Shown here: one piece after another, positions 51,002 through 59,073 of the stretch
Position numbering within the stretch: the stretch's first letter is position 1
How the letters are laid out: every line of letters starts with the position of its first letter
Assembly (NCBI RefSeq): GCF_900114925.1
Contig: NZ_FOUR01000001.1
Location: 310,001-374,000, forward strand
Source: Marinobacter pelagius
GTDB lineage: Bacteria; Pseudomonadota; Gammaproteobacteria; Pseudomonadales; Oleiphilaceae
Reading direction: 5' to 3'
Length of the DNA stretch: 64,000 nt
Position numbers and translations under genes: made by a program
The notes under the pieces: generated by a model
Seen by the model: the letters and a program-made list of their open reading frames with translations, nothing else
Told to the model about the DNA's origin: nothing
Databases searched by the model: none

Positions 51002-53014
51002 TTACCAGCGAGCAGTCAGTGCCGCCCGGAATGTCCGGCCCGGCTCGTTGACCCGGTAGACTTCGCCGGTAAACAGGTCTTCGCGACTGACATGGGGTGC
51101 CCAGGTCTTGTCGAACACGTTATCCACCGCCCAGCTCAGGGTCAGGTAGTCCATCAGCGGATGGCTGCCGTTCAGGTTGAATACGCCATAGCCCGGGGAA
51201 GTGCTCGGATCGAGGCCGGACTCCTCATCAATCCGGTCCTGTCGGCGCGCCAGCATCCATTCCGCCTGGACGGTATGACCCATGTGGTGCCAGCCCAGGG
51301 TCTGGATGTACTGCACAGGCGGAATCTGCGGCAACGGCTGGTCGGTGTCGTTATTGGTTCCCCGGACACTGGCCAGTTTGCCGGTGGCACTCCAGGTACC
51401 GTTGCTCCAGCCCAGTTCGCCCTCGACACCCAGCAGGCGGGCATCGATATTCCGGTAGCGGATCACGTCTGGTGTCGGCTCGTAGCGCAGCACGAAATCG
51501 TCCACTTCATCGACCCAGATCGCCGGGCGCCAGTGCCAGCCATCACTCTGCCCGGCCAGGCTCAGTTCCAGCTTGTGGTGTTTCTCGGTTTCAAGATCCG
51601 GGTTGCCGACCCAGGCCATGCCCTTGGTGACATAGCGCTCGTTGACGCCGGGAGAGCGGACGCTGTGGGAAGCGGTCAGTTCCAGGGTGTTGAGCGGCGA
51701 GACCCGCCATTCGCCGGTCATGAAACCGCTGATGTTGTCATCGGTGGCTTTGGTATCGGTTACGCCATAAACATTCTCGTAGATGGATGCCGGCGACATG
51801 GGCATCGCATCCGGGTTCATGGTGAACGTCTCGTCAGCCCGATTGGCGTCCATTTCCACCCGGTCATAGCGGATGCCCGCGCCCAGGCGCATGTTGACCC
51901 GGATACGGTGGAAGGCTTCGGCAAACACCCCGACACGATCACGCTCCACATCCGGCCACAGGAAGGAAGCCTCGTTGGTCAGATCCATGCCGTTGTACAT
52001 GGTGGCATCCCAGGTGTTGCTCTCGACGTCCACACCGACAGCGATGTCCTTGGTGTAGTCGATGGTCTGGTCCAGCACCAGCCGGGCGCCCTGGGTCCGG
52101 GTTTCCGACAGGGTCTGCATTTTCATGGGCATTCCCATCATCACCGGCGGCTCACGCAGGCTGAAATTGTCCATCACGTGATCCACATCCGCCTGCCAGG
52201 CCATCAGGTTCCAGCCACCATTGGCCACTGGCGCACCCAGTTCCAGGCGGTACATGTCGGTGTCGGTCTTCGGCGCATCCATGCCGGAGGCGTATTTCAC
52301 ATCCCGCTCTTCCTGGCGGCTGACCATGCCTTTCACATAGAAACCGTTGTCTGCCGTCCAGGCTCCGTCAACGCGGCCCTCGGTGTTTTCGAAGGCACTC
52401 CGGACCTCGTTGCCATCGCCGTCCTCGTAATCGTCGGCTTCTTCGTAACCGGCAGACAGCCGAAGGTAATTTTCACGATCGCCCACCGCAGCACTGCCAT
52501 TGACCAGTTTACCCTCACCGTTATCGGACCCGCCGATGGTGAGGTGACCGGTCGTGCTATTACCGTCGGCAAAGGTCGGCGCCGCCGTCGTGGCCACCAC
52601 CTGGCCACCGGCAATGGGGCCCCAGCGCAGGGTACGGTTGCTGGTACGGACTTCCAGCACCTGGGGTAACGCGGAGCTCAGCCGGCTGGTGGGTGGATCC
52701 ATCCGGTTAGGGCAGGCACCTTCCACCCGCATGCCGTCCAGCAGCACATCGACCCGTTCCTGGCCCTGACCATGGATCACCGGGTCCAGACCACGCCCGC
52801 CCAGACGGGAAAGCGATACCGAGGGCTCCGAATCCAGCCGGGACACCGGCTCCGACGCCAGGGCCGCTTCAGACAACCGGGCCGCCTCGGCGGACTGGCC
52901 TTCGGTGACCCGGATCAACAACTGGTCATCATCCTGTACCTGGGAAAAAGCGGGGGCAGTGGCACATCCGGCCAGAATCAGGCCGATAATGCGTGCCAGG
53001 GGTTTCTCGGTCAT
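51002..53014 (-). CDS. TonB-dependent outer-membrane receptor, OprC/NosA-like (copper)
   Basis: 670 aa from ATG 53014; a further 79 codons upstream are open but lack character and were rejected. The signal segment is ARIIGLILAGCATAPAFS. Plug domain carries GQGQERVDVLLDGMRVEGACPNRMDPPTSR, matching the OprC/NosA group, then about 22 strands and an RTFRAALTARW end (terminal aromatic). Methionine clusters (PVMMGMPMKMQ and MNPDAMPMSPAS) fit copper binding. It ends with its own terminator and is divergent from gdhA. Copper as ligand is inferred. Confidence 0.85.
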   Translation of the reverse strand: MTEKPLARIIGLILAGCATAPAFSQVQDDDQLLIRVTEGQSAEAARLSEAALASEPVSRLDSEPSVSLSRLGGRGLDPVIHGQGQERVDVLLDGMRVEGACPNRMDPPTSRLSSALPQVLEVRTSNRTLRWGPIAGGQVVATTAAPTFADGNSTTGHLTIGGSDNGEGKLVNGSAAVGDRENYLRLSAGYEEADDYEDGDGNEVRSAFENTEGRVDGAWTADNGFYVKGMVSRQEERDVKYASGMDAPKTDTDMYRLELGAPVANGGWNLMAWQADVDHVMDNFSLREPPVMMGMPMKMQTLSETRTQGARLVLDQTIDYTKDIAVGVDVESNTWDATMYNGMDLTNEASFLWPDVERDRVGVFAEAFHRIRVNMRLGAGIRYDRVEMDANRADETFTMNPDAMPMSPASIYENVYGVTDTKATDDNISGFMTGEWRVSPLNTLELTASHSVRSPGVNERYVTKGMAWVGNPDLETEKHHKLELSLAGQSDGWHWRPAIWVDEVDDFVLRYEPTPDVIRYRNIDARLLGVEGELGWSNGTWSATGKLASVRGTNNDTDQPLPQIPPVQYIQTLGWHHMGHTVQAEWMLARRQDRIDEESGLDPSTSPGYGVFNLNGSHPLMDYLTLSWAVDNVFDKTWAPHVSREDLFTGEVYRVNEPGRTFRAALTARW

Positions 53015-53124
53015 GCCTGGAGGTTCCTTACCATCACGGGAGTGGAAAAATCGGGTTAATTGCCGGTAATAATAAAGACAAACCCGGCCACGGGCTTGGG
53101 ACACAATGCCGCACCCCTTTGTAG

Positions 53125-54618
<1,494 letters not shown>

Positions 54619-54625
54619 TCCGGCC

Positions 54626-57202
54626 ATGACCAGCAACGAGCCTCTCCAGCCGACCGACCGGGTCTCCACCGGCCTGGCCGGACTGGATGAGGTTCTGGAT
54701 GGCCTTCGAATCGGCGATAACGTGGTCTGGCGGGTTTCCAACCTCGACGACTATCGCCGCTTCGTCCTTCCCTTCATCGATGCCGCGGCCCACGCGGGCA
54801 GACAGATCATCTATCTGCGCTTCGGGGAACACGCTCCGATCGTATCCGAACACCCCGCAGTCCGGGTCATTCATATCAACGCCCTGGGCGGATTCGAAAG
54901 CTTCACCAGCCGGATCTGGCGGCTGATCGAAGAGCATGGTCGCGGTGCCTTTTATGTTTGCGACTGCCTGAGCGAATTGCTCAATGCCTGGGCCACCGAT
55001 GCCATGGTGGGCAACTTCTTCCGGGTCGTCTGTCCGTTCCTGTTCGAGCTGGACACGGTCGCCTGGTTCGCCCTGCATCCGCAACACCACTCCCGCATGA
55101 CCCTAGACCGGATCCGGGAAACCACCCAGGTCATGATCGACGTACACCGGGATGGTGCAGAAGTACAGATTCACCCCATCAAGGCCTGGCGCCGGCAATC
55201 CCCTACCATGTTCCTGCCGCACCGGGAACAGGGCGGCCGCTTCGAGCCGATCACCGACAGTAGCGACGCAACCCGCGTCCAGGCCAGCCTGGAACTGGAA
55301 TATCTGCATCGCCAGCCGCTGCTGGATTACTGGGACAAACTGTTCCAGGAAGCCGGCCGGGCCCTGGCCAATCACGAGCAACACTGCGTGGACGATCTTC
55401 AGGACCAGGTCCTTAAGGTGCTCATCAGTCGCGATCCCAAGATACTGGAGCTGGCCAGGCGCTACCTGAGCCTCGAGGATCTGCTGACCATCCGCAGCCG
55501 GATGGTGGGCAGCGGCTACATCGGCGGCAAGGCCACCGGCATGCTGATTGCGCGCAACATTCTGCTGCAGGAGGATCCGGATACCTGGAAAGCCTGCCTG
55601 GAACCCCACGATTCAAGCTACCTGGGCACCGACGCCTATTACGCCTTCCTGGTCCACAACGGTCTGTGGCCGTCGGTCATGCGCCAGCGCTCGGAGGCCG
55701 GCTACCTTGCCGAAGCCCCGGAATTACAGCAAAGCATCCTCAAGGGCGGTTTTCCCGACGAGATCCGCTCTGAGCTGGAGCGCCTGCTGGATCATTACGG
55801 CCAGTACCCGATCCTGGTGCGGTCCAGCAGTCTGCAGGAAGACGGTTTCGGCAATGCCTTTGCCGGCAAGTACGACAGCGTATTCCTGGTCAACCAGGGC
55901 GGGCCGGAGCAGCGACTGGCGGCACTGGAAGACGCCATCCGGCAGGTCTATGCCTCGTCGATGAGTGAGGATGCCCTGGTGTATCGCCGGCAACGGGGCC
56001 TGCATCAGCGGGAGGAGCCCATGGCTCTGTTGATCCAGCGGGTGAATGGCCGTTTTCACGGCCGCTATTACCTGCCGGACGCCGCCGGGGTGGGCGTCTC
56101 TCGCAATACCTTTGCCTGGGACAGCAGCATGGACCCGGAGGCGGGCATGGTCCGGCTGGTCATGGGGCTTGGTACCCGGGCGGTCGACCGGATCGAGGGC
56201 GACCACGCCTGTGTCATGGCCCTGGACCAGCCCGGCCGTCACCCGTTCCGGAACCAGGATGAAAGCTACCGCTTTTCCCAACACCTGGTGGACCTGCTGG
56301 ACCTGCAGGAAGGCGCCCTCACCACCTGCCCCCTGAGCCAGCTGGCGCAGGACGTGCCGGCCCTGCCCCTGCCATACCTGGCGGAAGTGGACCGTCCGGC
56401 CAGCGAACGGGCGGAGCAGCTCGGGCTGGCCGGGCCGGTCTGGCGACTGACGTTCACGCCGCTGGTGAAACGCTCCCGGTTCATCGAACGCCTGTCACGG
56501 CTGCTGAAAACCCTCGAAGCCGGCTACCGACACCCCGTGGATGTGGAATTCACCCTGCACCTGGACCGCCAGGGGGAGCCATCCTTCAATCTGGTACAGT
56601 GTCGCCCCCTGGCCACCATCGGCGAAACCGGGCCGGTCACCCTGCCGGAAGAGCCGGACCCTAAGCGGGTGCTGTTCCGTACCGAAGGTCATTTTATGGG
56701 CGGCAACATCAACCTGACCCTGGACCGGGTGATCCGCATCGACGCCTCGGTCTACTCCCGACTGACCACCGGTCAGCGCTACGAGGTCGCCAGGCTGGTT
56801 GGGGAAGCCGTGCGCCAGGGCAACGGCCACACCCTGCTGATCGGCCCCGGCCGCTGGGGCACCAGCAGTCCCGAGCTGGGGGTACCGGTGCGATTTGCCG
56901 ACATCACCGGGGTATCGGTGCTGGTGGAAGTATCGGAAAAAGCGGGGGATATGGTGCCGGATCTGTCCTATGGCTCACACTTCTTCCAGGATCTGGTGGA
57001 AACCGGCACGGCTTACGTGGCCCTGTTTCCGGACGACAGACAATGCCTCTACCAACCCGAACTGCTGGAGCCGGCACCCCGGCAGACCGAACCCGAAGTC
57101 CGACCGGAGGATGCCATTCTGGTTACCACCACAGTTGATCGGCCACTGCATCTTCGTGCGGATGTGATCAGCCATCGACTGATCTGCTACTTCGATGATT
57201 GA
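54626..57202 (+). CDS. KaiC-like/PEP-synthase-like composite protein of unknown function
   Basis: 858 aa. Residues about 12-230 resemble a KaiC/RecA-fold domain (STGLAGLDEVLDGLRIGDNVVWRV), but the Walker A loop after it reads SNLDDYRRF, with no GxGKT. Residues about 290-660 match the ATP-grasp domain of pyruvate phosphate dikinase and PEP synthase (GGKATGMLIARN, ILVRSSSLQEDGFGNAFAGKYDS, NLVQCRPL). A distinct C-terminal domain (about 690-858) contains LLIGPGRWGTSSPELG and SYGSHFFQDLVE. The phospho-His and PEP-binding domains are absent. It sits between gdhA and a RegB/RegA-like pair. Probably a phosphotransferase or ATP-dependent regulator; not assigned. Confidence 0.8.
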   Translation: MTSNEPLQPTDRVSTGLAGLDEVLDGLRIGDNVVWRVSNLDDYRRFVLPFIDAAAHAGRQIIYLRFGEHAPIVSEHPAVRVIHINALGGFESFTSRIWRLIEEHGRGAFYVCDCLSELLNAWATDAMVGNFFRVVCPFLFELDTVAWFALHPQHHSRMTLDRIRETTQVMIDVHRDGAEVQIHPIKAWRRQSPTMFLPHREQGGRFEPITDSSDATRVQASLELEYLHRQPLLDYWDKLFQEAGRALANHEQHCVDDLQDQVLKVLISRDPKILELARRYLSLEDLLTIRSRMVGSGYIGGKATGMLIARNILLQEDPDTWKACLEPHDSSYLGTDAYYAFLVHNGLWPSVMRQRSEAGYLAEAPELQQSILKGGFPDEIRSELERLLDHYGQYPILVRSSSLQEDGFGNAFAGKYDSVFLVNQGGPEQRLAALEDAIRQVYASSMSEDALVYRRQRGLHQREEPMALLIQRVNGRFHGRYYLPDAAGVGVSRNTFAWDSSMDPEAGMVRLVMGLGTRAVDRIEGDHACVMALDQPGRHPFRNQDESYRFSQHLVDLLDLQEGALTTCPLSQLAQDVPALPLPYLAEVDRPASERAEQLGLAGPVWRLTFTPLVKRSRFIERLSRLLKTLEAGYRHPVDVEFTLHLDRQGEPSFNLVQCRPLATIGETGPVTLPEEPDPKRVLFRTEGHFMGGNINLTLDRVIRIDASVYSRLTTGQRYEVARLVGEAVRQGNGHTLLIGPGRWGTSSPELGVPVRFADITGVSVLVEVSEKAGDMVPDLSYGSHFFQDLVETGTAYVALFPDDRQCLYQPELLEPAPRQTEPEVRPEDAILVTTTVDRPLHLRADVISHRLICYFDD

Positions 57203-57265
57203 TCCTCGACAAGCCCGTTGAAAACAAATCTGCCGCAAGCCGTGACTGTTGATAGAATCCGAACC

Positions 57266-58543
57266 ATGGAATGGCTCACTCACTCTCAAACCGGTATTCG
57301 CCAGGCGGCCCGCTACCTCCTCGGCATGCGGCTGGCCATCGTAACGATCCAGCTGGTCGCCCTCGCTGTTGCGGAATCGATGATCACTCTGGCGTACGAA
57401 GCCGAGGCACTCTTACTTTGCCTCGGTTACGCTGTGCTCGCCACCCTGGGCTGGCTCTGGTTCACCCGTCGCCCACCGGCCTCATCCCTGGCCGTGAGTG
57501 CCGGGTTGCTGGCGGATATCGTCCTGATCGGCAGCTGGCTGTTCCTGACCGGCGGCTACACCAACCCCCTGGTTTCCCTCCTGTTGCTGCCCATTGCGGT
57601 GGCGATCATCCTGGTTCCCCTGGGCCAGAGTATCGCCATTACCATCAGCGGTATAGCCGCCTACACGGCCCTGGTGCTCTGGCACACCCCGATTACCCAC
57701 GGTCAGCACAATGACAACCTTGCCCAACTGCACCTGTTCGGCATGTGGGCAACCTTTGCTTTGACCGCGGCCATACTGTTGCTGGTGGTTGGTGCCCTGG
57801 CCCGTCGCCTTCGCAGCCAGCAGTTGCAACTGGCACAGTTTCGGGAAAACCGCCTTCGGGATGAGCAGATCATTGCCCTCGGCCTCTCCGCCGCCGCTGT
57901 GGGCCACCGGCTGGGGACACCCCTGAACACCATGACCCTGTTGCTGGACGAGATCCGATCGGAAACCGGTCGAAATAGCCCCACTGAACAGACCGGTGCC
58001 CTGCAGGAAGACCTGGACACCATGGAGCAGCAGATCCAGCTGTGCAGCCAGCACCTCCAGCAGCTCACCCGCGCCGCGGTGGAGGCCCGATCCGCCCGCC
58101 AGGAAACCCTGACGGTGGAGGATTGGCTGTTGCGCCTGAGGGAATCGGCCACCCTGCTCTGGCCATCCGGCCCGATCCACTGGCAACAACCGTTCCCGAA
58201 AGCGCCGGTGGCCGTAGACGCGACCCTCGACCAGGCGGTACTGAACCTACTGGCCAACGCCCTGACCGCGAGCCCGGCCTGGGTCGGCGTGGCGGCCCGC
58301 AGCGGCGCTCCGGGCCGGATCGAGATTGTCGTGGAAGATCACGGGGAGGGCCTGGAGGCTGCCCTTGAGGGCGCTCCGGGGGAAGAAATCGTGGATTCCA
58401 GAAACGGACTCGGTGTCGGCCTGTTCCTGTCCAATGCCACGATCCAGCGCCTGGGGGGCACCCTCAGGGCCAGGGCCGATGAGAACGGCACCACCATGGT
58501 CATTGATTTGCCGGAAGCGGACTCTAACGGAGACAGCGCATGA
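57266..58543 (+). CDS. RegB/PrrB-like redox-sensing histidine kinase
   Basis: 425 aa from ATG 57266; a 16-codon extension from 57218 lacks support. Six N-terminal membrane helices (residues about 20-175) include GGYTNPLVSLLLLP, the quinone-binding GGxxNPF-like motif of RegB. The H-box is AVGHRLGTPLNTM with His214. Cys260 in QIQLCSQHL lies where RegB has its redox-active Cys265. The ATP-binding domain has the N-box LNLLANALTASP and DHGEGL and NGLGVGLFLS glycine boxes. It would phosphorylate the adjacent RegA-like regulator in response to quinone or redox state. Confidence 0.92.
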   Translation: MEWLTHSQTGIRQAARYLLGMRLAIVTIQLVALAVAESMITLAYEAEALLLCLGYAVLATLGWLWFTRRPPASSLAVSAGLLADIVLIGSWLFLTGGYTNPLVSLLLLPIAVAIILVPLGQSIAITISGIAAYTALVLWHTPITHGQHNDNLAQLHLFGMWATFALTAAILLLVVGALARRLRSQQLQLAQFRENRLRDEQIIALGLSAAAVGHRLGTPLNTMTLLLDEIRSETGRNSPTEQTGALQEDLDTMEQQIQLCSQHLQQLTRAAVEARSARQETLTVEDWLLRLRESATLLWPSGPIHWQQPFPKAPVAVDATLDQAVLNLLANALTASPAWVGVAARSGAPGRIEIVVEDHGEGLEAALEGAPGEEIVDSRNGLGVGLFLSNATIQRLGGTLRARADENGTTMVIDLPEADSNGDSA

Positions 58544-59073
58544 GCCAACATAACCTCTGGCTGATTGTGGATGATGACGCAGCCTTTCTGCAGGTACTGC
58601 AACGTTCCCTGGCCCGCCAGGACATCGAGGCGGTGCCAGCCACCAGCGGGGCGGAGGCCCTCGCCCTGATCGAAGCAAGGGATTTCGGGCGTTGCGTGCT
58701 GGATCTCAACCTTTCCGGTGAGAGCGGCCTGCAGTTACTGCCGGAATTGCTGGCCCGCAGGCCGGATCTGGAAATACTGGTTCTGACCGGCTATGGCAGC
58801 ATTGCCACCGCGGTCGAAGCCATGCGCCGGGGGGCTATCAATTACCTGTGCAAACCGGTAACCGTGCATCAGCTTGTCACCGGCTTCGAGCCACTGGACG
58901 CGCCACCGGAGCTACGCCCGGAACCGCCTTCAGTGGAAGAAATGGAGTGGGAGCACATCCAGCGTGTGCTCAACGAGCACGACGGCAATATTTCCGCCAC
59001 CGCCCGTGCTCTGAACATGCACCGTCGCACCCTCCAACGCAAACTGCAGAAACATTCCCGCTGGCGCAGCTGA
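58540..59073 (+). CDS. RegA/PrrA-like response regulator
   Basis: 177 aa, overlapping the kinase stop by four bases (ATGA). The receiver domain contains VDDDAAFLQ, the phospho-acceptor Asp in CVLDLNLSGESG, TGYGS and the Lys in YLCKPV. The Fis-type helix-turn-helix is HDGNISATARALNMHRRTLQRKLQKH. A proline-rich linker (PPELRPEPPSVEE) separates them, as in RegA/ActR/PrrA. The family globally controls respiration and carbon or nitrogen redox balance. Its target sites cannot be identified here. Confidence 0.94.
   Translation: MSQHNLWLIVDDDAAFLQVLQRSLARQDIEAVPATSGAEALALIEARDFGRCVLDLNLSGESGLQLLPELLARRPDLEILVLTGYGSIATAVEAMRRGAINYLCKPVTVHQLVTGFEPLDAPPELRPEPPSVEEMEWEHIQRVLNEHDGNISATARALNMHRRTLQRKLQKHSRWRS

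Follow-up and report, generated by a model that had tools for sequence, protein, structure and literature searches.

The present analysis concerns a gene of Marinobacter pelagius that lies within a window of 64,000 nucleotides (NCBI RefSeq assembly GCF_900114925.1, contig NZ_FOUR01000001.1, positions 310,001 to 374,000), where it directly follows gdhA, the gene for a hexameric NADP-type glutamate dehydrogenase (GDH). Its product, for which the name KGP (KaiC-like, ATP-Grasp, PGRWG domain) is coined here, is probably a dedicated controller of ammonia fixation into glutamate, and in many phyla of bacteria it is encoded near a gene for GDH. The genomic link between KGP and GDH is strong, and the key association of the protein is with GDH and nitrogen assimilation, not with redox control. 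GDH connects carbon and nitrogen metabolism, and a gene that follows it across phyla, through changing gene orders and alongside two GDH types, yields a specific prediction. Searches of the open-licence literature found no paper that describes the KGP family or its link to GDH, nor any report of a comparable GdhA partner.

Association of KGP with glutamate dehydrogenase genes

Among 25 genomes of the same genus, KGP is present in 12 and an orthologous gdhA (88 percent or more) in 13, which include all 12 that carry KGP; in each of these 12 the two genes adjoin, and their order is fixed in Marinobacter. In one genome that lacks both KGP and an intact gdhA (G017), all that is left of gdhA is its first 23 codons, interrupted by one stop (locus L151, G017:C1 near 3105063-3105131). 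This relic lies upstream of the genes for the sensor histidine kinase (HK) and response regulator (RR) that neighbour KGP in the window; gdhA and KGP were lost jointly here.

The association extends far beyond the genus. A scan of genome contigs listed the best 80 of 560 confirmed relatives, which form a wide locus set with record names from Gammaproteobacteria, Desulfuromonadales, Planctomycetota, Omnitrophota, Margulisiibacteriota, Bacillota, Spirochaetes and others; two of its Marinobacter loci (L070 and L071) probably duplicate the same-genus genomes G014 and G024. With a bit score of 80 as the threshold for a GDH match, here as in the distance counts for the control, phylum-sample and variant loci below, GDH lies within 3 kb of KGP in 30 of the 69 non-Marinobacter loci of this set, and within 500 bp in 24 of those 30. 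All four relative orientations of the two genes occur (13, 11, 5 and 1 loci), and in a tree of 84 rows the arrangement among linked rows switched at least 10 times. No GDH was found at any of 20 control loci around PEP-synthase-like genes (PEP, phosphoenolpyruvate), 15 of which carry the canonical His motif, the remainder being PPDK_N-like matches or unclear. The genomes that host 27 hand-picked loci from the same set all contain a gdhA of at least 556 bits (27/27).

Co-occurrence is also apparent in samples that were evenly drawn. In a sample of the class, gdhA is present in 38 of 274 genomes and in 5/5 of those with KGP (Fisher 4e-5, uncorrected for relatedness), and in a sample of the phylum around a Desulfuromonas genome it is present in 45 of 198 genomes overall and in 27 of the 30 with full-length KGP (Fisher 3.4e-18, again with relatedness uncorrected). 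The three KGP genomes without gdhA in the latter sample have a different GDH at 130, 351 and 3278 bp, respectively, and GDH lies within 3 kb of KGP at 21 of the 30 loci. A sample from another phylum, around a Peptococcaceae genome, gave a similar picture, with gdhA (E 1e-100) in 38 of 149 genomes and in all five with KGP, adjacent by coordinates in three of the five. The neighbourhood of KGP is conserved, with gdhA, and the link to glutamate metabolism that an earlier sequence-only reading of the window (the original prediction) had called conceivable is strongly supported by this co-occurrence and adjacency beyond the window.

A second form of the protein adds to the pattern. In 11 of the 198 genomes of the Desulfuromonas phylum sample, the match is limited to approximately residues 250-860 of KGP (one of these genomes, G793, also holds a KaiC-type fragment and is counted only here). 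This KaiC-less variant aligns with KGP over 610 columns (E 1e-130), retains the GPGRWG and HFF-D-LVE motifs in an alignment of 10 of the 11 proteins, and has no Pfam match beyond PPDK_N at the family cut-off in the four proteins scanned. GDH lies 9-688 bp away at 9 of its 11 loci, the other two of which run into a contig edge. At the four loci examined (L173, L178, L181 and L182), the best NCBIfam model of the neighbouring GDH is GdhA_Arch, below cut-off; judged by sequence, the variant is paired with a GDH of another type than gdhA. A common core that pairs with two GDH types while its N-terminus is exchanged is what one would expect of a protein in signalling or regulation. The KaiC-less relative at L182:8818-11559 (minus strand) is 914 residues long, with a longer N-terminal part, of about 330 residues, that has no Pfam match.

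Where gdhA is not adjacent, gltBD, carAB or amtB and glnB are frequent neighbours of KGP, and glnA, guaA, purF, pyrG, asnB, NifA-like regulators and NrpR also occur. At least one nitrogen marker gene occurs at 51 of 72 non-Marinobacter loci and gdhA at 32 of the 72; all markers except gdhA were chosen afterwards, on the basis of the same loci, and only the gdhA figure is independent. An Omnitrophota locus (L128:1302-18949) has the order amtB, glnB, glnA, gltB, gltD, KGP, carA, carB, purF, pyrG, so that genes for the metabolism of ammonia and glutamine stand closely packed. In a Treponema record (L142:1-1686), an AmtB-PII fusion directly precedes KGP, and NrpR-like regulators lie near KGP and GDH at seven loci of the Desulfuromonas phylum sample (L188, L190, L192, L195, L196, L204 and L207).

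Domain anatomy of KGP

The KGP reading frame is uninterrupted, and 11 same-genus orthologues share 71-95 percent identity with it. It begins after a 7-base gap from the end of gdhA (at 54618) and is followed by a 63-base gap before the ATG of the kinase gene (at 57266), spacings for which the original prediction and the coordinates agree. An AlphaFold2 model of the full-length protein, built on an alignment of 61 sequences, has a mean pLDDT of 87.2 and a pTM of 0.85. The features of the locus are collected in Table 1.

Table 1. Features of the gdhA-KGP locus and the adjoining two-component genes, with positions counted from the first nucleotide of the window.
Feature	Positions	Strand	Remarks
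gdhA, hexameric NADP-type glutamate dehydrogenase	53269..54618	+	NF006929 773.1 bits (cut-off 536)
KGP gene	54626..57202	+	open reading frame of 858 aa; pseudo-KaiC, PPDK-type ATP-grasp and C-terminal domain
KaiC/RecA fold lacking Walker A, residues 1-225	54626..55300	+	invariant GDN (30-32) and D113
PPDK_N ATP-grasp, residues 298-668	55517..56629	+	PF01326; K302, R399, E641, Q658, R660 invariant
C-terminal domain, residues 664-858	56615..57199	+	weakly swivelling beta/beta/alpha-like; no Pfam match
PGRWGTSSPELG motif, residues 741-752	56846..56881	+	P741, G742, R743, G745, G752 invariant in 71 rows
His785 codon, candidate phosphocarrier	56978..56980	+	no variation in 71 rows, among them those of the KaiC-less variant
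RegB-like sensor histidine kinase (HK)	57266..58543	+	genus neighbour, probably outside the KGP system
RegA-like response regulator (RR; receiver and Fis-type helix-turn-helix)	58540..59073	+	genus neighbour, probably outside the KGP system

The N-terminal domain has the fold of KaiC and RAD55-type RecA ATPases, matching KaiC 7s65_B with a VIA Z of 20.9 over 196 residues at 3.0 A. Unlike in those ATPases, the Walker A motif is gone from every sequence examined: GK[ST] occurs in 0 of 61 KGP homologues, while the GDN triplet is present in all 61. The degenerate KaiC/RecA-like N-terminus that had been read from the sequence is thus confirmed in both respects, and KGP as a KaiC-type ATPase is ruled out by the missing Walker A.

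The central domain matches PF01326 with an E value of 4.6e-45 (154.8 bits, cut-off 27), in keeping with the PPDK/PEP-synthase ATP-binding domain recognised earlier. Its invariant residues sit in motifs that can be aligned with rifampin phosphotransferase (RPH) or PEP synthase, and its best match in the PDB is RPH (5hv6; 5hv1), with HpeI (9goj) also among the matches. RPH is described as requiring Lys22 and Arg117, not Glu297, for activity (PMC4844700); all three residues are counterparts of invariants in the KGP domain. By these sequence criteria, the ATP-grasp of KGP is intact. KGP has no Pfam match to the PEP/pyruvate-binding barrel, its chain stopping at residue 858, and none to the canonical phosphohistidine domain, which is likewise unmatched in 61 C-terminal domains. 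KGP as an ordinary PEP synthase is ruled out, as neither the barrel nor the canonical His is present.

The third domain, which the original prediction had called uncharacterised and had marked by the PGRWGTSSPELG motif, proved to be conserved, with five invariant residues in that motif, and none of 61 members has a significant Pfam match to it. No family named in Pfam or NCBIfam covers either this domain or the N-terminal one. Folded alone, the C-terminal domain is predicted with a pLDDT of 92.4. Its top VIA rows are the pyruvate kinase C-terminal region (3t05, Z 6.4) and 2ioj (Z 6.3), and it matches RPH 757-866 and PPDK 377-508 at Z 6.0 each, values under 8 that may reflect a common arrangement. 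Rows 1-2 Z units away are functionally unrelated (thermosome apical domains, LD-carboxypeptidase and others), and the phosphohistidine rows are not clearly distinct from them. Foldseek returned nothing at E 0.001 for this domain (best E 0.089), and searches of PDB sequences with its profile gave chance matches only. Comparison of profiles found no homology between this domain and the PEP-synthase His domain.

Across 71 rows that include the distant variant, 15 residues of the domain are invariant, among them R743, H785, D789 and E792. By inspection, the elements of the model are ordered as strand 736-741, strand 765-769, the H785 loop, helix 786-792 and strand 796-800, so that H785 stands just before a helix and between two strands, which we take to be the place of the catalytic His in PPDK-type domains. 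His785 may therefore be equivalent to the PPDK catalytic His; in view of the missing sequence homology to the PEP-synthase His domain, this equivalence rests on the order of secondary-structure elements and the weak fold match. The stretch of RPH matched by VIA includes that enzyme's catalytic His825 (PMC4844700). The original prediction had both the phospho-His and the PEP domains gone from KGP: neither has a Pfam match, and for the phospho-His domain the absence holds in sequence but may not hold in structure, given the weak swivelling-domain fold.

Proposed function and competing explanations

As the best explanation of these observations, and with middling confidence, we regard KGP as a dedicated GDH regulator derived from the front half of a dikinase of the PPDK/PEP-synthase type. 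In our proposal, ATP charges the protein, which in turn controls GDH. The intact ATP-grasp would bind ATP and phosphorylate the swivel-like C-terminal domain, with His785 as the candidate residue; since KGP lacks the acceptor domain found in ordinary dikinases, the loaded domain would act on another protein, for which GDH is the obvious target, through either binding or phosphoryl transfer. Ammonia assimilation would then track the energy and nitrogen state of the cell, and the pseudo-KaiC N-terminus could serve as a sensing or oligomerisation module, replaced by an unrelated N-terminus in the variant that accompanies the other GDH type. The data show the domain anatomy, its conservation, the genomic pairing with two GDH types and the co-occurrence; that KGP turns over ATP, uses His785 to carry the phosphoryl group and touches GDH is what we infer, as is the direction of regulation. 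A broader version, which we advance only tentatively, sees in KGP a so far unrecognised, multi-phylum layer of nitrogen control: a PPDK-derived phosphorelay protein whose swivel domain (His785) would be charged by the ATP-grasp and would modify or bind GDH, whether of the NADP gdhA type or GdhA_Arch-like, with exchangeable N-terminal sensors such as the dead KaiC.

The closest parallel is VadK (Rv1127c) of Mycobacterium tuberculosis, described as a PPDK that lost its substrate domain and autophosphorylates on His422; its gene lies close to prpC and prpD, and it is reported to interact with the methylcitrate-cycle enzymes that these two genes encode and to tune the pathway (PMC13400623). Going by that published description, VadK and KGP are alike as truncated dikinases without a substrate domain whose genes lie near the enzymes regulated, or proposed to be. 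In KGP, the ATP-grasp is present and the substrate domain absent, with a carrier domain suggested by the weak fold match and the invariant His, and the counts of nearby GDH genes given above (21/30 and 30/69 loci within 3 kb) correspond to the encoded-beside-target feature of such regulators. VadK differs in its canonical phosphohistidine domain (His422) and has no KaiC domain described for it (PMC13400623); KGP differs in having GDH as its partner and a C-terminal domain without detectable sequence similarity to the PEP-synthase His domain. PEP synthase and PPDK themselves share with KGP the PPDK_N ATP-grasp, and the domain that comes next in the chain has a weakly similar fold, whereas KGP has no PEP/pyruvate barrel and no canonical phosphohistidine motif and carries the additional pseudo-KaiC domain. 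Dedicated protein control of glutamate dehydrogenase, as proposed for KGP, is known from GarA and PknG in actinobacteria, which are proteins unrelated to KGP and act on a different, large GDH type. If the proposal is true, truncated dikinases as regulators of metabolic enzymes would extend from the mycobacterial case to a widespread system of nitrogen assimilation.

Several observations weigh against the regulator proposal. GDH is absent from the stretch at 39 of the 69 non-Marinobacter loci of the wide set (12 of these 39 are no more than 1.5 kb from where their contig ends), and 33 of the 38 gdhA genomes in the class sample are without KGP. One same-genus genome (G022) has gdhA beside HK and RR and no KGP, so gdhA works without it, and seven of eight further Bacillota matches form a more distant branch that does not adjoin GDH. 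The presence of carAB, purF or pyrG beside KGP in some genomes suggests a wider nitrogen role. As for the phosphocarrier, the modelled fold match of the C-terminal domain is weak (Z of about 6, and the Foldseek value above); profile comparison with the PEP-synthase His domain yielded nothing (hhalign probability 0.4 percent), and the insignificant alignment obtained favours a register that loses the His.

In an unlikely alternative, KGP would be an enzyme of metabolism that shares a pathway with GDH: a phosphotransferase or ligase that uses ATP and has as its substrate a small molecule from the metabolism of glutamate or ammonia. The intact ATP-grasp would suit such an enzyme, as would the neighbours gltBD, carAB, purF, pyrG, guaA and asnB, and two PPDK-like proteins are described as small-molecule kinases, namely RPH (PMC4844700) and the two-component kinase HpeHI, a PPDK-like dikinase divided over two proteins (PMC12167813). 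Unlike these two, KGP is linked to GDH and has no small-molecule-binding domain or other recognised acceptor-binding domain; the His domain of RPH is C-terminal, after its RIF domain. Pairing with two distinct GDH types and dispensability beside gdhA in G022 also speak against such an enzyme, and the exchange of the N-terminus on a conserved core fits signalling better than catalysis on one substrate.

We likewise consider a role without catalysis improbable, with KGP as an energy sensor or assembly factor in which a nucleotide-driven change of shape controls or scaffolds GDH with no transfer of a phosphoryl group. A KaiC domain that lacks Walker A in 61/61 rows and a canonical phosphohistidine motif that Pfam does not find are what such a protein might show, but even among widely diverged sequences all catalytic-type residues of the ATP-grasp are invariant, together with H785, R743, D789 and E792, suggesting chemistry.

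The original prediction had also drawn redox control into the picture through the RegBA-like pair downstream of KGP, a connection that the wider survey does not support. The best NCBIfam model for HK is ActS/PrrB/RegB, at 127.1 bits against a cut-off of 350, and that for RR is ActR/PrrA/RegA, at 146.3 bits against a cut-off of 250, so that both fall short. The pair adjoins KGP in 11 of the 12 same-genus genomes that carry it, as membership of a common redox circuit would predict, yet HK is present in 22 of the 25 genomes of the genus, of which 11 lack KGP, and G003 has KGP without HK. Outside Marinobacter, no HK or RR match stands beside KGP at any of 72 loci. The pair as the defining association of KGP is ruled out by this distribution, and a shared redox circuit is very improbable. 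Hardly credible, finally, is mere shared inheritance of a conserved gene block, which could appeal to the fixed gene order in Marinobacter and the relatedness of the sampled genomes but is opposed by the variety of orientations (four), an arrangement that switched at least 10 times, several phyla, two GDH types and co-occurrence even where the genes are not adjacent.

Further features of the locus and its relatives

The distant Bacillota branch, a third beside KGP and its KaiC-less variant, comprises proteins with the ATP-grasp and C-terminal core, encoded by open reading frames of 572-773 aa that score 361-384 bits, in genomes G860, G836, G919, G852, G930, G880 and G894. Between window positions 53000 and 59300, no promoter-like sites were found, and terminator-like sites did not exceed those in shuffled sequences. 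Upstream of gdhA, a TonB-dependent-receptor-like gene (window positions 51002-53251, minus strand) points away from it; this gene has no match at the G003 and G013 loci and is conserved in position in most KGP genomes of the genus.

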